A stretch of DNA of 64,000 nucleotides from Halobaculum halobium (GTDB lineage Archaea > Halobacteriota > Halobacteria > Halobacteriales > Haloferacaceae): assembly GCF_030127145.1 (NCBI RefSeq), contig NZ_CP126159.1:1-64000 (forward strand). Direction: 5' to 3'. The first letter of the stretch is position 1, and every line of letters starts with the position of its first letter. A program made the position numbers and the translations under genes. Below, piece after piece: positions 34,767-45,568 of the stretch. The notes below the pieces were generated by a model that was not told the origin of the DNA, did no database searches, and saw only the letters and a program-made list of their open reading frames with translations.

Positions 34767-34965
34767 TATTGATATGTCTGGGAGTTGCCGTTACGGTGCT
34801 TTCTGCACGAACGTCATAGTTCGGGTCGCTCAATACGAACAACACACTACGGATCGTTAACCACCCGTTTGGCGTAGGACAACTACCGTACCGACGTGAT
34901 TGTCAGTTGATAGGGCTGCGGTCAGTTCCTTGGTCAATCCCCCCACGCTGAAGCCACACCTCACA

Positions 34966-34979
34966 TTGTCGCAGGACAA
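34966..34979. promoter_or_regulatory. Short inverted repeat in the cydA-oxidase intergenic region
   Basis: TTGTC-GCAG-GACAA lies about 38 bases before the ATG at 35017, inside the 250-base divergent region shared with cydA. It could be an operator for oxygen-dependent control. It is short enough to arise by chance. Confidence 0.2.
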
Positions 34980-35016
34980 ACGATCATCCATACTGGGTCC
35001 TCCATTGAGCGAACCT

Positions 35017-36816
35017 ATGGACGTTGGGCCACAACTAGCGTTGACTATCCTCATGGGGGCGCTTCTGTTTGGAGTCGCCTTCTGGGTCTCTCGGCTGGAG
35101 AACTGGCGGGTTGCATCGACGGCGGCCGACGGCGCCGCTACCGGCGATCGATACGGTCGCGAGAAACCGTCCGGTGTGATCCGGTGGCTTACCACGGTCG
35201 ACCACAAGGACATCGGGCTCATGTACGGCGTCTACGCCGTCAGCATGTTCGCATGGGCCGGCGGAGCCGCGGTCTTGATGCGTGCTGAGTTGATTACGCC
35301 GGAGTCAGATCTCTTCGCGGCCACGTTCTACAACTCGCTGCTGACGACCCACGGTATTGCGATGTTACTGCTGTTCGGGACGCCGATCCTTGCTGCGTTC
35401 GGAAACTACCTCATCCCACTGATCATCGGCGCCGACGACATGGCGTTCCCACGCATCAACGCCATCGCATTCTGGCTCCTTCCGTTCGGAACGGTGTTCG
35501 TGTTTGCCGGCTTCCTCCCGATCGAGGGACTGATCCCTGCCCAGACGGCATGGACGATGTACCCGCCGCTGTCCGCCGGGATTGGTGCCGGTAATCAGGG
35601 GAATGTCGGGGTCGACCTGATGCTGCTGGGGCTGCATCTGACCGGAATCGGCGCGACGATGGGCGCGATCAATTTCATCGTCACCATCTTTACCGAACGC
35701 GCCGAGGAGGTAACTTGGGCAAATCTCGATATCTTCTCGTGGACCATTCTAGTGCAGTCTGGACAGATCCTGTTCGCGTTCCCACTGCTGGGCTCTGCGA
35801 TGATCCTCCTCCTACTCGATCGGAACTTCGGGACGACGTTCTACGCCGTTGACGGAGGCGGCCCGATCCTCTGGCAACACCTGTTCTGGTTCTGGGGCCA
35901 CCCCGAAGTATACATCCTGATCCTCCCGGCGATGGGGATCATCAGTCTGCTCATTCCCAGGTTCTCTGGGCGCAAGCTGTTCGGATTCAAGTTCGTCGTC
36001 TACTCCACGCTAGCGATCGGCGTGCTCTCGTTCGGCGTGTGGGCTCACCACATGTTCACGACGGGCATCGACCCGCGCCTGCGCGGGTCATTCATGGCAG
36101 TCACGCTCGCGATCGCGATCCCGTCCGCCGTGAAGACGTTCAACTGGATTACGACGATGTGGGGCGGAACGCTCCGTCTCACGGTGCCGATGCTGTTCAG
36201 TATCGGCTTCCTCTCGAACTTCATCATCGGCGGTGTGACGGGCGTGTTCCTCGCTTCGATCCCCGTCGACCTCGTACTCCACGATACCTACTACGTCGTC
36301 GGCCACTTCCACTACTTCCTGATGGGCGGGATGGTGTTCGCCGTGTTTGCGGGTATCTACTACTGGTTCCCGCTGTTCACGGGTCGGTGGTACCAGCGCC
36401 GTCTCGGGAGAGCGCATTTCTGGCTGACACTCATCGGGACAAACATCACGTTCTTCGCGATGATCCTCCTCGGGTACGGCGGCATGCCCCGCCGGTACGC
36501 GAGCTATCTCACACAGTTCACCGACCTCCACCAGATCGCATCGGTCGGCGCACTGTTCATCACTGTCGGGCAGTTGATCTTCCTCTGGAACGTCGTGCAG
36601 TCGTGGTTCGAGGGGAAACGCGTCGAGAGCGGCGACCCCTGGGATCTCAAGGCCGACGACGTGTTCACGGAGGAATGGGCGTGGTTCGAACGGCAACGTG
36701 AGACAGCACTCACCGACGGCGGCGACGCGGACGGTGAGGCCGTCTCCAACGACGGCCAGCCAACGGCCGAGACCGAGGGCCCGACGCGCGACCGATCAAC
36801 GGGTGACGACGACTGA
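35017..36816 (+). CDS. Heme-copper cytochrome oxidase subunit I
   Basis: 599 residues from ATG 35017 (MDVGPQLALTILMG); the longer frame from 34900 lacks family character. About 13 membrane helices. Metal ligands are visible: TTHGIAMLL (low-spin heme His), WGHPEVYI (CuB His and cross-linked Tyr, with the Glu of A1-type oxidases), AHHMFTTG (two CuB His) and VGHFHYF (heme a3 and heme a His). PDP-loop-type GADDMAFPRINA is present. It reduces O2 to water and pumps protons in the cell membrane. No CuA subunit II or subunit III gene is adjacent, so the partner must lie elsewhere or the electron donor differs. The C-terminal 60 residues are an acidic tail. The gene overlaps the next one by ATG/TGA sharing. 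Confidence 0.95.
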   Translation: MDVGPQLALTILMGALLFGVAFWVSRLENWRVASTAADGAATGDRYGREKPSGVIRWLTTVDHKDIGLMYGVYAVSMFAWAGGAAVLMRAELITPESDLFAATFYNSLLTTHGIAMLLLFGTPILAAFGNYLIPLIIGADDMAFPRINAIAFWLLPFGTVFVFAGFLPIEGLIPAQTAWTMYPPLSAGIGAGNQGNVGVDLMLLGLHLTGIGATMGAINFIVTIFTERAEEVTWANLDIFSWTILVQSGQILFAFPLLGSAMILLLLDRNFGTTFYAVDGGGPILWQHLFWFWGHPEVYILILPAMGIISLLIPRFSGRKLFGFKFVVYSTLAIGVLSFGVWAHHMFTTGIDPRLRGSFMAVTLAIAIPSAVKTFNWITTMWGGTLRLTVPMLFSIGFLSNFIIGGVTGVFLASIPVDLVLHDTYYVVGHFHYFLMGGMVFAVFAGIYYWFPLFTGRWYQRRLGRAHFWLTLIGTNITFFAMILLGYGGMPRRYASYLTQFTDLHQIASVGALFITVGQLIFLWNVVQSWFEGKRVESGDPWDLKADDVFTEEWAWFERQRETALTDGGDADGEAVSNDGQPTAETEGPTRDRSTGDDD

Positions 36817-38217: not shown

Positions 38218-38904
38218 CTACAGTCCCTCTTCGATTGCCGACGATATCGTCGAGTAGTCGGGTCTGTCGAGGAGAGTTCCGTCGACGAACACGCTGGGGG
38301 TAGCCTCTACTCCCCGGTCGAGGCCCGATTCGCGGTCGGCCTCCAACACCGGGCGGTATCGATTGCCGCTCGCGTCGGCCACTACGGTGTCGGGGTCCGC
38401 GTCGACGGCACTCGCGAGATCGCGCAGGAGCGACTCGGAGTACGTCGGCGACCCGTCCGACCATCCTTCCTCGAACAGTCGCCCGGTGAACGTGAAGAAC
38501 GCCTCGTCCCCGACCGTGTTCTGTACCGCTCGCGCGGCGCCGGGAGCCTCCCACGACCAGCGGTCGTCCACCGGGATCGGGAAGTCGTGATGCTCGAATC
38601 GTACGTCGCCGGAACCGACGTACTCGTCGACGATTCTCGGCTGGACGTCGACGGCGAACGTCCGACAGTGCGGGCACGCGAAATCCTCGAACACCGCGAC
38701 CGTCACCGGCGCGTCCTCGTCGCCGTGAACTGGCGTGGGCAGCGATTCGACAGCGTCGGCGGGTACCTCATCGCTCCCGCCGCTACTGCCGCCACCGCCG
38801 CCGAGACAGCCGGCGGTGGCGGTTGCCGCAGCCGCAGAGAGCCCGGTGAGGACGGCGCGTCTCGATGGAGAGGTCCGATCGGGCCCGGATATCTGTCGGG
38901 TCAC
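38218..38904 (-). CDS. Exported DsbA-family thiol oxidoreductase (lipoprotein)
   Basis: 228 residues if the start is GTG 38904. A Tat motif SRRAVLTG is followed by a hydrophobic Ala/Thr stretch and a lipobox ATAGC, then a Gly/Ser linker. The thioredoxin fold (about 55-225) has the active site FACPHCRTF (CPHC) and the cis-Pro loop GVEATPSVFVDG, as in DsbA/DsbG-like proteins. It would oxidise or isomerise disulfides, or carry copper, on the outer face of the membrane. It may serve the copper sites of the oxidase or the nos proteins, or the Cys pairs of exported proteins. It is convergent with the oxidase cluster and divergent from the sulfur operon. Confidence 0.9.
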   Translation of the reverse strand: MTRQISGPDRTSPSRRAVLTGLSAAAATATAGCLGGGGGSSGGSDEVPADAVESLPTPVHGDEDAPVTVAVFEDFACPHCRTFAVDVQPRIVDEYVGSGDVRFEHHDFPIPVDDRWSWEAPGAARAVQNTVGDEAFFTFTGRLFEEGWSDGSPTYSESLLRDLASAVDADPDTVVADASGNRYRPVLEADRESGLDRGVEATPSVFVDGTLLDRPDYSTISSAIEEGL

Positions 38905-39048
38905 ACTCGAGAGCCGGACTCCGCGAGCAACACAGTTGTGGTCCGATCCCGGTATTCGAGAGTCGTACCAAACCGTCCGACGGCCCCGGGCGTTCGTCGA
39001 CGCCAACATCTCGATATCAGGCCGGTAACGACGTTGCACTGCCAAAAG

Positions 39049-39249: not shown

Positions 39250-39273
39250 TTCCGACTCCCATTGAGTCTCGTG

Positions 39274-40464
39274 ATGGCAGACGAATTTCCCGAGCCGGAG
39301 GTCGAGGTCGAATCGATCGCACCAGAGGATCTCAAGAGCCGCATCGATGCCGGCGAAGAGGTCACGCTGCTTGATTCGCGGATGACCTCCGACTACGAGG
39401 AGTGGAAGATCGACGGCGAGAACGTCGACTCGATTAACATCCCGTACTTCGAGTTCTTGGAAGACGACATCGACGACGACGTTCTCGATCGGATCCCCGA
39501 CGATCGGGAGGTAACCGTCCTGTGTGCGAAGGGCGGGGCCAGCGAATACGTCGCCGGCGCCCTGAAGCAGCGCGGCTACGACGTGAACCACCTCGAGGAG
39601 GGGATGAACGGCTGGGCGCGTATCTACGAACGCGAGGAGGTCACGGAGTACGACGGACCCGGCTCCGTCTACCAGTACCAGCGGCCCTCGTCGGGCTGTC
39701 TGGGCTACCTCCTCGTCGACGGCGACGAGGCGGCCATCGTCGACCCGCTGCGCGCGTTCACCGACCGGTACCTCGAGGACGCCGAGGAACTGGGCGCAGA
39801 TCTGACGTACGCGTTCGACACGCACATCCACGCCGACCACATCAGCGGCCTCCGCGAACTCGCCGCGGAGGGCGTCGAGGGCGTCATCCCCGAGAACGCC
39901 GTCCCGCGCGGCGTCACGTACGCCGACGAGATGACCACGGCGGCCGACGGCGACGAGTTCGACGTCGGCGACGCGACCGTCGAGACGATCTACACCCCCG
40001 GTCACACCAGCGGGATGACCTCCTACCTGCTCGGCGGCAGCCTGCTCACCACCGGCGACGGGCTGTTCATCGAGAGCGTTGCTCGTCCCGATCTCGAGGA
40101 GGGCGACGACGGAGCCCCAGCCGCCGCAGAACAGCTGTACGACACGCTCCAGGAGCGCGTGCTGACGCTGCCTGAGGAGACGCTCATCGGCGGCGCCCAC
40201 TTCAGCGACGCCGCCGTCCCGGCCGACGACGGGACCTACACCGCGCCAATCAGTGATCTAAAAGCGCGGATGGACGCGCTCAGTTACGACAAGGAGGAGT
40301 TCGTCGAAACCGTCCTCGCCGACATGCCGCCGCGTCCCGCGAACTACGTGGATATCATCGCGACCAACCTCGGCCAGCAGGACGCCGACGACGAGGAGGC
40401 GTTCACCCTCGAACTCGGCCCCAACAACTGCGCCGCGAGCACGGACGCAATGACGAGCGACTGA
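39274..40464 (+). CDS. Rhodanese-metallo-beta-lactamase fusion, persulfide dioxygenase-like
   Basis: 396 residues from ATG 39274. The N-terminal rhodanese domain (about 10-120) has Cys84 in VLCAKGGAS. The C-terminal metallo-beta-lactamase domain (about 130-360) has the iron-binding THIHADHISG (His184, His186, Asp188, His189) and GHTSGMTSY, as in ETHE1/persulfide dioxygenases. Such enzymes oxidise glutathione- or low-molecular-weight persulfide to sulfite; in haloarchaea the thiol carrier differs. The rhodanese part can move sulfane sulfur between thiosulfate, persulfide and protein carriers. It is cytoplasmic. It heads the sulfide-oxidation genes and has its own promoter with a palindromic operator candidate. 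Confidence 0.93.
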   Translation: MADEFPEPEVEVESIAPEDLKSRIDAGEEVTLLDSRMTSDYEEWKIDGENVDSINIPYFEFLEDDIDDDVLDRIPDDREVTVLCAKGGASEYVAGALKQRGYDVNHLEEGMNGWARIYEREEVTEYDGPGSVYQYQRPSSGCLGYLLVDGDEAAIVDPLRAFTDRYLEDAEELGADLTYAFDTHIHADHISGLRELAAEGVEGVIPENAVPRGVTYADEMTTAADGDEFDVGDATVETIYTPGHTSGMTSYLLGGSLLTTGDGLFIESVARPDLEEGDDGAPAAAEQLYDTLQERVLTLPEETLIGGAHFSDAAVPADDGTYTAPISDLKARMDALSYDKEEFVETVLADMPPRPANYVDIIATNLGQQDADDEEAFTLELGPNNCAASTDAMTSD

Positions 40465-40673: not shown

Positions 40674-41180
40674 ATGGGATTGGTAGTTCCTTACGACGGA
40701 TCGACGCTCTCGGACGCAGCGCTCGTCCGCGCGAACCAATTCGACTGCATCCTCGAAGAAGGTGTGACCGCAGTGACGGTGATTCCCAAAGGGAACAGGA
40801 CATACGCCCGGGATCACGGGTGGATCGGGTCTAATGAGACGTACGACACCGATGTGATCGTTGAGACACTCCGGCAGTCGGTGCATGCCATCGTACCCGA
40901 TGCTCGCTTCGAACCGATCTTCGTGGGTAGTCACGCGCCGTTCGGAACGATCGCAGGCCGAATCCGACGGTTCGCACGCGACAACGACACGAGCATCGTC
41001 TTTCTTGGGAGTGACAACGCCGGGCGGATGGTCGGATCGCTGAGCGTCGGAGGGGCAGTCACAGCGGACAAGACCTACGACACGATGATCATCTCCCAAT
41101 CAATCCCAGCGGAGATCGAGAAACTCGAGGAGGAACTCCCCTGTGACGAACTGTTGGCTCGCGCCACCGTCGACAACTAA
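40674..41180 (+). CDS. Universal stress protein (UspA) family protein
   Basis: 168 residues from ATG 40674. It begins with the Usp-type strand and loop GLVVPYDGSTLSDAALVRA, and ends in the alpha/beta fold core (ARDNDTSIVFLGSDNAG). The classical ATP motif G-2x-G-9x-G(S/T) is not clear, so nucleotide binding is uncertain. The start of the gene is preceded at 40622-40640 by GTATTGCACAGATTACGAA, a weak third copy of the element in front of the persulfide dioxygenase gene. Its place in the sulfur operon suggests a stress or regulatory role during sulfide exposure. Confidence 0.85.
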   Translation: MGLVVPYDGSTLSDAALVRANQFDCILEEGVTAVTVIPKGNRTYARDHGWIGSNETYDTDVIVETLRQSVHAIVPDARFEPIFVGSHAPFGTIAGRIRRFARDNDTSIVFLGSDNAGRMVGSLSVGGAVTADKTYDTMIISQSIPAEIEKLEEELPCDELLARATVDN

Positions 41181-41392: not shown

Positions 41393-41638
41393 ATGAGCGA
41401 CGCACAACTCGAGGCCGACGTGACGGTGAACGCGGTCGGATCGTCGTGTCCCGGCCCGATGATGGAACTGATCGGGAAGGTCAAAGACGTCGATCCGGGG
41501 ACGCTGATCCGACTCCAGAGCTCGAACGAGGGCACCGAACCGGACGTGTCGGAGTGGGCCGAGACGTCCGGGAATGAGCTGGTCGAGGTGGTCGACCACG
41601 GCGACCACTGGGACCTGTACGTACGGGTCGATGACTGA
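41393..41638 (+). CDS. TusA-like sulfur carrier protein
   Basis: 81 residues from ATG 41393, the normal size of the TusA/SirA family. The catalytic CPGP is present with Cys19 (VGSSCPGPMMEL). TusA-type proteins receive persulfide from rhodaneses and pass it on. Here the partners would be the rhodanese domains and the sulfide:quinone oxidoreductases encoded next to it. The stop overlaps the next ATG (41631), so it is coupled to the first SQR gene. Confidence 0.92.
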   Translation: MSDAQLEADVTVNAVGSSCPGPMMELIGKVKDVDPGTLIRLQSSNEGTEPDVSEWAETSGNELVEVVDHGDHWDLYVRVDD

Positions 41639-42776
41639 GCGCGTCGTCATCGTCGGTGGCGGGACCGCCGGGTCGGTGCTCGCGAACAACCTCGCTGACG
41701 AGGTCGCCGCGGAGATCGACGCGGGCGACGTCGAGGTTGTCCTCGTCAACGATCGCGAGGAGCACGTGTACAAGCCGACCTGGCTGTACGTCCCCTTCGG
41801 AGAGAAGACGCCCGAGGACGCGAAACGACCACTCGACGACCTGATCGACCGGCGGGTGGATCTGCTGATCGACCGGGTCAGCGCCGTCGACACCGACGCC
41901 GAGACGGTGTCGTTCGAAGGGAGCCGCAGCGATCTGGCGTACGATCACCTCGTGCTCGCGATGGGCGCGCAGGTAACGCCCGAGGAAACGCCAGGGCTGG
42001 CGGAGGGCGGCCACCACTTCTACGGGCCCGAGGCGACCGAGGAGCTCCGCCAAGAACTCGCGGAGTTCACCGAGGGGCATCTCGTGATGTCGGTCGTCGG
42101 CGTGCCGCACATGTGTCCGGTTGCGCCGCTGGAGTTCCCGCTCATCGCGGATACCTGGCTCCGCGAGCGGGACCTGCGCGAGGACGTCGACATCACGTAC
42201 ACCTATCCGATCAATCGCGCTCACGGGATCCAGTCGGTCGCCGACTGGGTCGGGCCGCTGATGGAAGAACGCGATATCAACGTGGAGACGTTCTTCAACC
42301 CCGAGCGGGTCGATCCCGACGAGCAGGTCGTCCACACCGTCGAGGGGCGAGAGCTGTCGTACGACCTGCTGGTGACGATCCCGCCACACGACGGCAGCGA
42401 CATCGTCCGGGACGCCGGGCTCGGCGACGACGGCTGGGTCGACGTCGACCCGGCGACGCTGGAGGCGACACACGCCGAGAACGTGTACGCGCTCGGCGAC
42501 ATCGCGGACCTGCCGACGAGCAAGGCCGGCAGCGCGGCCCACTACGCGGCCACGTCGCTGGCCGACCGGCTGGCCAGCGTCGTCCGCGGTCACCGCCCGA
42601 CCGCCGAGTACGACGGGAAGACCGTCTGCTTCATCGAGAGCGGCGAGGACGAGGCGACGTACATCTCCTTCGACTACGACGAGGAGCCGACGCCGAAGCA
42701 GCCCTCGAAACTGATCCACTGGTCGAAACTCGGGTACAACCAGTCGTACTGGCTGACCGCTCGAGGGGTGTTGTGA
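41631..42776 (+). CDS. Sulfide:quinone oxidoreductase-like flavoprotein, copy 1
   Basis: 381 residues from ATG 41631. The FAD-binding motif VVIVGGGTAGSVLANNL is at the N-terminus, and the second flavin motif NVYALGDIADLP is near 284-294. Redox Cys are placed as in SQR: Cys162 (VPHMCPVAPLEFP) and Cys333 (YDGKTVCFIESG). It should oxidise sulfide to bound persulfide or polysulfide and reduce membrane quinone. The C-terminal region (LIHWSKLGYNQSYWLTARG) is amphipathic and suits a monotopic membrane contact. It overlaps the TusA and DUF1641 genes on either side, so the three are translated together. Confidence 0.92.
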   Translation: MTERVVIVGGGTAGSVLANNLADEVAAEIDAGDVEVVLVNDREEHVYKPTWLYVPFGEKTPEDAKRPLDDLIDRRVDLLIDRVSAVDTDAETVSFEGSRSDLAYDHLVLAMGAQVTPEETPGLAEGGHHFYGPEATEELRQELAEFTEGHLVMSVVGVPHMCPVAPLEFPLIADTWLRERDLREDVDITYTYPINRAHGIQSVADWVGPLMEERDINVETFFNPERVDPDEQVVHTVEGRELSYDLLVTIPPHDGSDIVRDAGLGDDGWVDVDPATLEATHAENVYALGDIADLPTSKAGSAAHYAATSLADRLASVVRGHRPTAEYDGKTVCFIESGEDEATYISFDYDEEPTPKQPSKLIHWSKLGYNQSYWLTARGVL

Positions 42777-43441
42777 TGAGCGCGCTCGACGGCGGCGACG
42801 GCGGCACGGACGCCGACGCGGAGTCGCTCCCGCCGGAGGTCCGTGAGGCGATCGCGGACAATCCCGAGACCGTCGCTGCCCTGCTGGAGCAGTCGGGGCA
42901 GCTGTCAACGCTGCTCGACGCGCTCGCGCTCATCGAGGACAGCCTCGACGATGAGATGGTCGAATCGCTCGCCGGCGACGCGACGACGCTCGGACTGGCG
43001 GCGACCGAACTCGCCGACAACGGGACGGTCGAACTCGGCGCGGCCGTCGGAGAAAACGGCGACGAACTCGCCGCGGCCGTCCGCCGCGTCGCGGTGCTCC
43101 AGCGGACCGGGACGCTCGACCGACTCACGGAAGTCGCCGACGCGGTCGCGCTGTTGACGGACGCGATGGACGACGAGATGATCGAGACGGTCGCGGCGAC
43201 CGGCACCTCGCTGGGCGAACTCGCCGACACGGCGACCGACGACGAGGTCAACCGGGGCATCGTTCGGATGCTGGAGGGCGTCGGCGCGGCCGGATCGGCG
43301 GAGGCCGAGCCGGTCGGCCCCATCAGCTTGCTCGGCGCCTTGCGCGACCCGGAGGTGAAAGCCGGGATGGGGTATCTCGTCGCGGTCGCCCGCGGCATCG
43401 GCGCTGCAGGTCCCGAACCCGACGGATCGAACGACGACTGA
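42776..43441 (+). CDS. DUF1641 family protein, partner of SQR copy 1
   Basis: 221 residues from ATG 42776, sharing bases with the SQR stop codon. It is acidic and helical, with repeated motifs of the form LLDALALIEDSLDDEMVESL and VALLTDAMDDEMIETV, and a Gly-containing segment near the C-terminus (LLGALRDPEVKAGMGYLVAVAR) typical of DUF1641. The biochemical role of the family is not established. Its coupling to SQR genes here, twice, indicates a dedicated accessory or membrane-docking subunit of the SQR complex. Confidence 0.88.
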   Translation: MSALDGGDGGTDADAESLPPEVREAIADNPETVAALLEQSGQLSTLLDALALIEDSLDDEMVESLAGDATTLGLAATELADNGTVELGAAVGENGDELAAAVRRVAVLQRTGTLDRLTEVADAVALLTDAMDDEMIETVAATGTSLGELADTATDDEVNRGIVRMLEGVGAAGSAEAEPVGPISLLGALRDPEVKAGMGYLVAVARGIGAAGPEPDGSNDD

Positions 43442-43461
43442 CTACCGAAGCCACATTCACC

Positions 43462-44637
43462 ATGACAGCAACACGACCGAACGTCCTCATCCTCGGCGGC
43501 GGCGCCGGGGGGACGATGACAGCGAACGCGCTCCGTCGGCGCATCGACGCCGACGTGACCGTGATCGACAAGAGCCGGACGCACAGCTACCAGCCCGCGT
43601 ACTACCTGATCCCGTTCGACTACATGGACCTCGACGAGCAGCAGCGAAACACGCGTGACCTCCTCCACAAGGAGGTCGAGTTCGTCCATGACGAGGTTGT
43701 CGGGATCGACCCGGACGAACAGACCGTCGCAGGAGAAGCGGACTCTTACGAGTACGACATCCTCATTTCCGCGGTCGGGAACAACCGCCGACCGGACGCG
43801 ATCCCGGGGATGCTCGAAGGCTGGAACCGGACGGACTCGGTGTACCCGTTCTATCACGCCTCTGCCGCACGAGCGTTGGGCGACGCTGTCGACGAGTTCG
43901 ACGGCGGGCGCTTCCTCGTGACGGTTCCGGACACGCCGATCAAGTGCGGCGGCGCACCGCTGAAGCTCACGATGCTGATGGAGGAGTACCTCCGGAAGCG
44001 CGGCGTTCGCGAGGACGCCGAGATCGTGATGACCAAACCGGGATCCGAGGTGTTCGGAACCGGACCGAAGGCACCGTACCAGGAACGGATCGAAGAGATC
44101 TGGGAGGACCGCGACATCACGTTCGTGCCCGACTTCACCGTCTCCGAGGTCGACTACGAGAACCAGACGGTCCACTCGGAGGAGGGCGACTCACTCGAGT
44201 ACGACCTGTACGCGCCGGTTCCACCCCAGTACGGCCACGAGTTCGTCGTCGAAAACTCGCCGCTGACCGACGGTGGCGAGTACGTCTCCGTCGACGACAA
44301 CACGCTCCAACACGAGACGTATTCGAACGTCTTCGCGCTTGGCGACAACGCCGACGTGCCCACCTCCCGGACCGCCTCGGCGGCGCGCAAGCAGTCGCAC
44401 GTCGTCGTCGACAACGTCGAGCGGTTCCTCGAGGACCGGCCGCTGGCGCCGGAGTACGACGGGTACACCGCCTGCCCGATCCTCACTGAGAAGGGGAAGG
44501 CGATGATCGCGGAATTCGACTACGAGGACTCCATCTCCGCACCGGTCGTGAGCCGGCTCAACTGGATCCTCGACATCAACGTGATCCCGTCGCTGGACTG
44601 GAACGTCTGGATGCGCGGATACGACCCGGTTCCCTGA
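43462..44637 (+). CDS. Sulfide:quinone oxidoreductase, copy 2 (SQOR-like type)
   Basis: 391 residues from ATG 43462. FAD motif VLILGGGAGGTMTANAL at the start and FALGDNADVPTSRT near 291. The active Cys162 lies in VPDTPIKCGGAPLKL and Cys338 in EYDGYTACPILTEKG; both stretches closely match the human SQOR type (type II SQR), which makes persulfide or thiosulfate with sulfite as acceptor. It reduces quinone at the membrane. The gene is followed after one base by a second DUF1641 gene. Copies 1 and 2 differ greatly in sequence, so they are not a recent duplication and may use different acceptors. Confidence 0.95.
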   Translation: MTATRPNVLILGGGAGGTMTANALRRRIDADVTVIDKSRTHSYQPAYYLIPFDYMDLDEQQRNTRDLLHKEVEFVHDEVVGIDPDEQTVAGEADSYEYDILISAVGNNRRPDAIPGMLEGWNRTDSVYPFYHASAARALGDAVDEFDGGRFLVTVPDTPIKCGGAPLKLTMLMEEYLRKRGVREDAEIVMTKPGSEVFGTGPKAPYQERIEEIWEDRDITFVPDFTVSEVDYENQTVHSEEGDSLEYDLYAPVPPQYGHEFVVENSPLTDGGEYVSVDDNTLQHETYSNVFALGDNADVPTSRTASAARKQSHVVVDNVERFLEDRPLAPEYDGYTACPILTEKGKAMIAEFDYEDSISAPVVSRLNWILDINVIPSLDWNVWMRGYDPVP

Positions 44638-44638
44638 C

Positions 44639-45568
44639 ATGAGTGAATCACCACCCGACGCGGACGCGTTCGCGACCGCCGCCGGCGGCGATGCCAACTT
44701 GGAGGCGTTGGCCGCCCGCGTCGACGCGCAGGCGGATGATCTGATCGCGCTGTTAGACCTACTCACGGTCGTCCGCGGGCTGAGCGACGAACTCGTGCCG
44801 GAACTGCGCACGGCCGTCTCGGAGAATCGCGAGCCGCTGGCGGACCTGCGGACCTCCCTGGAGAACGAGGAGACGATGCACCTAGTCGAGCAGGTGGGCG
44901 ACAACGCCGACGCGCTCGCGGACCTGCTCGATCTGGTCGTCGTCGCCCAGGACCTCTCGGCGGAACTCGTCCCCGAGTTGCGCACCGTCGCCGCCGAGAA
45001 CCGCGGCGAGATCGCCAAGCTTCGCGTCGCGTTCGAGCGCGAGGAGACGCTGGTGCTGTTGCGACAGATCGGCGACAACACCGACACGTTCCTTGACCTG
45101 CTGTCGACGCTTGAGGTCGCGAGCGGCGCCCTCGCGGATGTCGCCCCGGAGGACGAAGCGGCCGCCGAGGCCGCCCGTGAGGACGTGCGCCGCCTCGCGA
45201 CGGCGTTCGACCGCGCGGAGTCCGTCGACACGCTCGTCGCGCTCGGGGAGAACATGGACACCGTCCGCGGGCTGCTCGCGCTCGTGGAGGGCTTCGGCGA
45301 CGCCGCCGACCGAAGCACCGAGGAGTACTACCGGCTCGGCACGCAACTGGGCCAGGCCGCCGACGTGGCCGAGCGCGCGAGCGATCCCCGGGTTATCGAG
45401 ACGCTCGACGCCGGCGCGAGCGCCTTCGCCGACGAGACGGCCGACCGCCGGGTCGGTCTGTTCGGGCTGTTCTCCGCCCTCCGCAACGACGACGTGCAGC
45501 GGACGCTCGGAACCCTCGTCGATGCAGCCGAGCGGGTCGGGCGAACGCGCAACTCCGGTTCAGAGTGA
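44639..45568 (+). CDS. DUF1641 family protein, partner of SQR copy 2
   Basis: 309 residues from ATG 44639, one base after the SQR stop. The protein is helical and acidic and consists of at least three related repeats (DDLIALLDLLTVVRGLSDELVPELR; DALADLLDLVVVAQDLSAELVPELR; DTFLDLLSTLEVASGALADV, each quoted within the limit only in part: LLDLLTVVRGL, LLDLVVVAQDL, LLSTLEVASGA). The DUF1641 C-terminal element appears as FGLFSALRNDDVQRTLGTLV. It is longer than the first copy because of the repeats. A docking or regulatory role for the SQR is inferred from the neighbourhood. Confidence 0.88.
   Translation: MSESPPDADAFATAAGGDANLEALAARVDAQADDLIALLDLLTVVRGLSDELVPELRTAVSENREPLADLRTSLENEETMHLVEQVGDNADALADLLDLVVVAQDLSAELVPELRTVAAENRGEIAKLRVAFEREETLVLLRQIGDNTDTFLDLLSTLEVASGALADVAPEDEAAAEAAREDVRRLATAFDRAESVDTLVALGENMDTVRGLLALVEGFGDAADRSTEEYYRLGTQLGQAADVAERASDPRVIETLDAGASAFADETADRRVGLFGLFSALRNDDVQRTLGTLVDAAERVGRTRNSGSE

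Follow-up and report, generated by a model that had tools for sequence, protein, structure and literature searches.

Sulfide:quinone oxidoreductase (SQR) is usually regarded as a single-subunit monotopic flavoenzyme. Partner proteins of the DUF1641 family (PF07849) have been described for other enzymes, and here we report that in Halobaculum halobium each of two neighbouring SQR genes is followed at once by a DUF1641 gene. The two pairs stand behind a TusA-family gene at 41393–45568 of the window, the stretch of 64,000 nucleotides that was analysed (positions 1 to 64,000 of contig NZ_CP126159.1, RefSeq assembly GCF_030127145.1). Judging from comparisons with other genomes and with solved complexes, each DUF1641 protein is probably a membrane- or quinone-coupling scaffold subunit of the SQR that precedes it.

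ForE1 (YjgD), from the Bacillus subtilis formate dehydrogenase ForCE1 (8RQZ), belongs to PF07849 too, and its gene lies directly after that of the catalytic subunit. The available part of the source describes it as a small partner without cofactors, like those found here, which copurifies with ForC1; ForC1 made without ForE1 had low menaquinone-7 (MK-7), no menadione reductase activity and little remaining formate:benzyl-viologen activity, and attempts to purify ForC2 by itself failed (PMC8808070). ForE1 differs in that it serves a molybdenum enzyme, not a flavoprotein, and is one shorter chain in place of the tandem repeats seen here. HucM of the Mycobacterium smegmatis hydrogenase Huc (7UUS) has a homologous C-terminal part. 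In the accessible portion of its description it is an elongated helical, menaquinone-carrying oligomer scaffold with a hydrophobic tube to the membrane able to hold menaquinone, and deletion of hucM left Huc active but unassembled (PMC10017518). Its partner is a [NiFe] hydrogenase, its gene order is reversed, and the tetrameric tube is described for HucM. A third relative is YjlC or ‘NDH-2 membrane coupling protein’ (9SNK, 9PXK-M), which is homologous to the DUF1641 partners at this locus. NDH-2, like SQR, is a member of the two-dinucleotide-binding superfamily of flavoproteins, which makes this coupling protein the nearest precedent, although in Bacillales its gene comes before the NDH-2-like gene (L262-L264) and not after the flavoprotein gene as here.

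Further occurrences of the family appear in excerpts of other papers: a DUF1641 gene is part of a Huc-type hydrogenase operon in Parageobacillus (PMC12976888), the Ignicoccus DUF1641 protein Iho_0672 and the flavoprotein Iho_0673 increase together in proteomics (PMC3149612), and the expression levels tabulated for Haloquadratum include those of a DUF1641 protein and, next to it in locus numbering, an ‘anaerobic dehydrogenase alpha subunit’ (PMC9684190). On the SQR side, the Methylacidiphilum fumariolicum operon MFUM_v2_0219-21 combines a type III SQR and TusA, as here; it is described as SQR, TusA and DsrE2, and DUF1641 is not named in the part of the source that was available (PMC10205796). 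No report of SQR–DUF1641 pairing was found in the literature searched (preprints were outside its scope, and the papers behind the YjlC and NDH-2-coupling structures may mention SQR). As far as that literature goes, the family of coupling subunits is known and SQR is a newly recognised partner of it.

ORF coordinates and family profiles placed five genes on the + strand in the order TusA–SQR1–DUF1641–SQR2–DUF1641. The first gene of the SQR1 cassette encodes a TusA-family sulfur carrier with a CPGP motif (41393..41638; PF01206, 53.3 bits vs a cut-off of 28.6; 27.5 bits vs the 78 required by the NCBIfam TusA equivalog). The ATG of SQR1 (41631..42776, 381 aa, both redox Cys present; Pyr_redox_2) lies inside TusA, giving an 8-nt overlap, and its stop codon shares a 1-nt TGATG overlap with the start of DUF1641-1 (42776..43441, 221 aa), which has all-helical repeats and a C-terminal DUF1641 motif. 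After a gap of 20 nt follows SQR2 (43462..44637, 391 aa; Pyr_redox_2), and 1 nt further on DUF1641-2 (44639..45568, 309 aa), with a tandem repeat of ~58 aa and the same C-terminal motif. PF07849 scores were 56.3 bits for DUF1641-1 and 34.3 bits for DUF1641-2, above the gathering cut-off of 21. Gene order, overlaps and family scores thus confirmed the two SQR–DUF1641 pairs adjoining TusA that an initial annotation of this DNA had proposed. The identical five-gene order was found on a Halobellus limi plasmid and two tandem SQR–DUF1641 pairs in Halorubrum kocurii (L140), so the arrangement is conserved. A scan for terminators and promoters 3' of the cassette found none.

SQR1 and SQR2 share 32% identity, and SQR1 shares 60% with the third SQR of the genome; the two DUF1641 proteins are 33% identical over 82 aa. 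In an alignment of 11 sequences both redox Cys of SQR1 and of SQR2 occupied invariant columns (C156 and C331 of the first row), in keeping with the earlier statement that copy 1 is much diverged but retains both. The motifs of SQR2 are TPIKCGGAP...DGYTACP, as in human SQOR, and aligned with that protein and with bacterial type II SQRs it fits the type II contexts KCxGAP and YxxCP. SQR1 has PHMCPVAPLEF...GKTVCF, with E at the position where SQR2 and SQOR have K. The nearest solved relative of SQR2 in the Protein Data Bank (PDB) is human SQOR (195 bits, E 1.7e-56), which is likewise the best PDB match of SQR1. The Cys arrangement of mitochondrial SQOR, ascribed to copy 2 from the outset, was therefore recovered in both contexts, together with the lysine after the first Cys. 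To our knowledge, mitochondrial SQOR has no DUF1641 partner.

In a tree of 153 SQR rows (quick method, SH-aLRT support only, several long branches flagged), 15 haloarchaeal SQR2-type rows joined 14 bacterial type II plasmid rows in a 29-row group with an SH-aLRT of 99, and SQR2 is accordingly called type-II-like. SQR1 and SQR3 fell in a 44-row haloarchaeal clade within a larger type-III-like assembly. SQR1 scored 338.7 bits against the type III SQR model NF049943, below the cut-off of 525; that model describes a selenoprotein subtype, so the missed cut-off does not exclude type III. The label ‘type-III-like’ for SQR1 comes from NF049943 and the split in the tree, which holds no assayed type III sequence. 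A recent tandem duplication of the pairs was ruled out by the SQR identity of 32% and the tree placement. On this comparison, the window carries two anciently separate SQR–DUF1641 pairs, which are old paralogues.

The annotation had called for a genome survey of SQR–DUF1641 linkage and had named rare linkage elsewhere as the point on which its subunit claim would fail; linkage proved to be common. Fifty-nine of 97 Halobacteria genomes contained DUF1641, and the 71 matches in genomes other than the window's own were all taken, with 4 more from a genus sample. In 62/71 (66/75 with the genus sample) the gene immediately before DUF1641, in the same orientation, was SQR, separated by -4 to +11 nt. 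Six of the 71 genes were preceded by a molybdopterin oxidoreductase (L099, L102, L103, L104, L106, L113), and these are probably archaeal ForCE-type formate dehydrogenases. The other three (L058, L094, L105) adjoin neither SQR nor a molybdoenzyme and are short ORFs, probably remnants. Pair types were never swapped: SQR2-type genes stood with DUF2-type partners in 13/13 cases and SQR1/3-type genes with DUF1/3-type partners in 53/53. The H. halobium genome itself, with an assembly overlap set aside, has three strong SQRs (>500 bits) and three DUF1641 genes in one-to-one pairs; three weaker flavoprotein matches (50-73 bits) fall on a different contig, C1, which yielded no DUF1641 match.

The survey was also seeded from the SQR side by scanning species genomes with an alignment of SQRs headed by that of Candidatus Chlorohelix, which has no DUF1641 neighbour. 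The best 80 loci were kept, from Bacillota, Nitrospirae, Leptospirillum, Actinomycetota, proteobacterial metagenome-assembled genomes, Campylobacterales, Deinococcota, Chloroflexota, Marsarchaeota and Thermoplasmata, plus 28 haloarchaeal loci. A DUF1641-like gene lay downstream of SQR in 75/80, with a gap of -4 to +51 nt in 72; because the DUF1641 profile was trained on haloarchaeal members, 28 of the 80 loci resemble the training set, and for the non-haloarchaeal loci the count was 47/52. Pfam's own model placed DUF1641 somewhere in 33 of 50 non-haloarchaeal genomes (50 of the 52 loci covered). The five loci without the gene were L125, L126, L138, L202 and L203. TusA–SQR arrangements without DUF1641 were seen in Chlorohelix (L119 3648-5095), Meiothermus and Calidithermus (L125, L126).

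Among 17 bacterial plasmid SQR loci an annotated DUF1641 gene stood beside SQR in one, the conjugative element pKLC102 of Pseudomonas aeruginosa, where it comes right after SQR (L311 3172-3594); the pKLC102 SQR falls among the type-III-like rows of the tree. Two others have an unannotated protein 3' of a type II SQR that Pfam misses. In six-sequence searches the DUF1641 profile matched the 186-aa protein of Priestia (L121 4207-4767) at 8.5e-10 and, weakly, the 182-aa protein of Exiguobacterium (L120 4158-4706) at 0.0017, and both look like divergent DUF1641 candidates. The remaining 14/17 plasmid loci had no DUF1641 by annotation, and the downstream proteins of Rhodococcus, Paraburkholderia and Paracoccus, which were scored with the profile, gave no match.

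Homology to the known subunits was detected with a profile, A2, built from 75 SQR1-type DUF1641 proteins (74 from the scan and the window's own SQR1 partner), of which Pfam's DUF1641 model matches 67 at E <=0.01. Searched against PDB with hmmsearch, A2 matched ForE1 (8RQZ, 3e-11) over nearly its whole length, the C-terminal part of HucM (7UUS, 4e-8), YjlC (9SNK, 8.5e-7) and the ‘NDH-2 membrane coupling protein’ (9PXK, 2e-6). A phmmer search of PDB with one single DUF1641 sequence returned nothing useful. The SQR2-type and SQR1-type families are themselves homologous (hhalign, prob 98, 171 columns). Partner lengths range from ~130 to >300 aa, and the proteins are repetitive, with a 58-aa period in the SQR2-type family (z 6.6, 15 members) and a 74-aa period in the SQR1-type family (z 3.9). 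The AF2 model of DUF1641-1 is all-helical (pLDDT 79, pTM 0.34). The C-terminal DUF1641 helix is clearly amphipathic in DUF2 (0/2000 shuffles) and not clearly so in DUF1 (231/2000) or DUF3 (187/2000); being clear for DUF2 only, this was not used as evidence.

DUF1641 has partners other than SQR, as 100 further loci made plain (L205-L304; 30 of them come from genomes chosen for SQR and are hence biased, some samples are part of larger match sets, and phylum and order labels refer to the centre loci). Among the matches listed, the SQR-chosen genomes gave 21 SQR-like, 7 formate-dehydrogenase-like and 2 other partners at 30 loci; Bacillota, 3 SQR-like and 1 other at 4; Bacillales, 20 formate-dehydrogenase-like, 4 SQR-like, 3 with an NDH-2-like flavoprotein downstream and 2 other at 29; Thermoproteota, 24 SQR-like, 1 formate-dehydrogenase-like and 4 other at 29; and Actinomycetota, 6 SQR-like, 1 formate-dehydrogenase-like and 1 other at 8. 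At that last locus (L298) DUF1641 adjoins the small subunit of a [NiFe]-hydrogenase. At L215 (3-1635) DUF1641 lies ~0.3 kb behind the gene of a possible further partner, a protein that contains an ETF-QO quinone-binding domain. Thermoproteota genomes (L268-L296) carry up to five DUF1641 genes each. DUF1641 is thus not SQR-specific, and most of its partners feed the quinone pool. The claim that it is a real SQR subunit found strong comparative support in the pairing (62/71, 75/80, and 3:3 in its own genome).

The constant, lineage-specific pairing across phyla and the homology to known quinone-coupling subunits are the grounds for regarding DUF1641 as a coupling subunit, and we counted it in the same direction that quinone-linked or respiratory enzymes predominate among the other classified partners. 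Sequence comparison makes a strong case that the two are functionally paired and that DUF1641 is homologous to coupling subunits; that DUF1641 binds SQR, oligomerises and handles quinone we infer. Each DUF1641 protein would serve only the SQR whose gene precedes its own, as a helical partner without catalytic function. By homology, SQR would oxidise sulfide at FAD and the Cys pair, and the sulfane sulfur would pass to an acceptor, which in the SQR1/SQR3-type cassette is probably TusA, given the gene coupling. Electrons would pass to menaquinone. As in ForE and HucM, and in line with the gene pairing, DUF1641 would oligomerise or scaffold SQR and couple it to the membrane quinone pool.

Several observations weigh against DUF1641 as a coupling subunit. 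Twelve of the 14 bacterial type II plasmid SQRs with which SQR2 groups have no DUF1641 partner gene and the remaining 2 only a divergent candidate, and the type-III-like SQRs of Meiothermus, Calidithermus and Chlorohelix lack one as well. DUF1641 is accordingly not essential for SQR chemistry, and its role would be one in coupling, assembly or kinetics. The Caldivirga type III SQR is reportedly active when made alone. The first-Cys motif is missing in 10/20 SQR-like Thermoproteota rows of the tree, so some of these partners are not canonical SQRs and may be further flavoprotein partners. No SQR–DUF1641 fusion was present among 473 ORFs with either domain. A Foldseek search of PDB with two AF2 helical models gave 0 matches, ForE and HucM included, the models being modest (pTM 0.34 and 0.39). 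The activity of Huc without hucM implies that the phenotype of a DUF1641 deletion may be subtle. We also considered that DUF1641 might replace a lost C-terminal membrane anchor of SQR, and rejected this idea: SQR2 ends where the partner-free Staphylococcus SQR ends, and over the 153 SQRs tail length tracks SQR type and not the presence of DUF1641 (48 vs 49 aa), in a comparison in which just 4/20 Thermoproteota rows showed the second-Cys pattern and only 6 rows outside the plasmid type II set lacked DUF1641.

Those SQR lineages that manage without DUF1641 would suit a different role, that of an assembly or stability chaperone which aids folding or FAD loading of SQR and stays outside the working enzyme. 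The benzyl-viologen activity lost by ForC1 without ForE1 and the failure to purify ForC2 alone, as far as that source was available, point to a stability role in a homologue (PMC8808070). ForE1 and HucM, however, are structural subunits of solved complexes, and the SQR–DUF1641 pairing is one-to-one and lineage-specific, which leaves the chaperone an unlikely explanation. Somewhat less likely still is a place on the sulfur side, where DUF1641 would serve as an adaptor bringing TusA or the dioxygenase into contact with SQR and would not be a quinone-side subunit. The order TusA–SQR–DUF1641 does recur: TusA adjoins SQR in 45/53 haloarchaeal SQR1/3-type loci and lies just upstream in at least 55/80 scan loci. 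It adjoins SQR in 0/13 SQR2-type loci, however, so that all 13 of these pairs have DUF1641 without TusA, and Chlorohelix, Meiothermus and Calidithermus have TusA without DUF1641; some other DUF1641 partners are enzymes with no part in sulfur metabolism. Shared regulation only, with DUF1641 as a separate stress or membrane protein co-transcribed with SQR, is very improbable: gene neighbourhood by itself is no proof of contact, but the adjacency is near-constant over many phyla, the lineages are matched, and the homology is to known subunits.

Should a partner of the ForE/HucM/YjlC type indeed belong to the type-III-like SQRs in most lineages sampled and to haloarchaeal type II SQRs, assays of such SQRs alone may miss native quinone kinetics and assembly, a domain of unknown function would acquire one role common to several enzymes of respiration, and whether the partner-free mitochondrial SQOR arose by loss would become a question open to test. 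A broader proposal, which we offer tentatively, is that DUF1641 may be an exchangeable ‘quinone socket’ which formate dehydrogenase, the Huc hydrogenase, NDH-2 and perhaps ETF-QO, respiratory enzymes not otherwise related, have in common, with SQR as a major unreported partner. The type-III-like SQR would be a three-component machine in which sulfur leaves by TusA and electrons by DUF1641, and the single-subunit type II SQRs, among them the mitochondrial ones, would form a lineage from which the partner has disappeared.

The window is the start of a contig of 463,690 bases, and its positions 1-55333 are repeated at the contig end (C2:408347-463690) with 99.93% identity, 5 mismatches and 29 gap openings (blastn). 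The repeat is nearly identical and differs mostly by indels, which indicates an untrimmed circular overlap and a replicon that is probably circular, at ~408 kb. The second copy of the locus at C2:449988-453904 was therefore rejected as an artefact of assembly. A third TusA–SQR–DUF1641 cassette, on the - strand of the same replicon at ~C2:356-359 kb (L010 9965-12820), is genuine. A TrmB-like regulator gene precedes it on the same strand.

Upstream of the two pairs, at 39262..40464 on the + strand (alternative ATG start 39274), lies a gene for a rhodanese–metallo-beta-lactamase (MBL) protein, probably an ETHE1-type persulfide dioxygenase. Pfam finds Rhodanese and Lactamase_B domains, and the MBL part matches ETHE1-type PDB proteins at 2e-22 to 3e-19, BpPRF and human ETHE1 (3e-19) included; the score against the NCBIfam Blh equivalog is 34.5 bits, below the 625 required. 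The gene is 0.9 kb upstream of the cassette and not directly beside it as first described: a weakly Usp-like ORF (40674-41180; 17 bits, under the Pfam cut-off) and ~0.2 kb separate it from TusA. A dioxygenase gene occurs inside the 6.2-kb locus in 18/66 haloarchaeal loci, a loose linkage. The full set for turning sulfide into persulfide, sulfite and thiosulfate that the annotation had envisaged is supported in part: TusA is firm for the SQR1-type cassette, where it would probably be the sulfur acceptor, and absent from SQR2-type loci; sulfite formation by the loosely linked dioxygenase is plausible, with thiosulfate as a hypothetical further product. Beside these sulfur genes, at 38218-39045 (-), lies a gene for a DsbA-like thioredoxin-fold protein, probably a lipoprotein. 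Some 2.4 kb before the dioxygenase gene, at 34900-36816, subunit I of a COX1-family terminal oxidase is encoded, a possible outlet for electrons from SQR.

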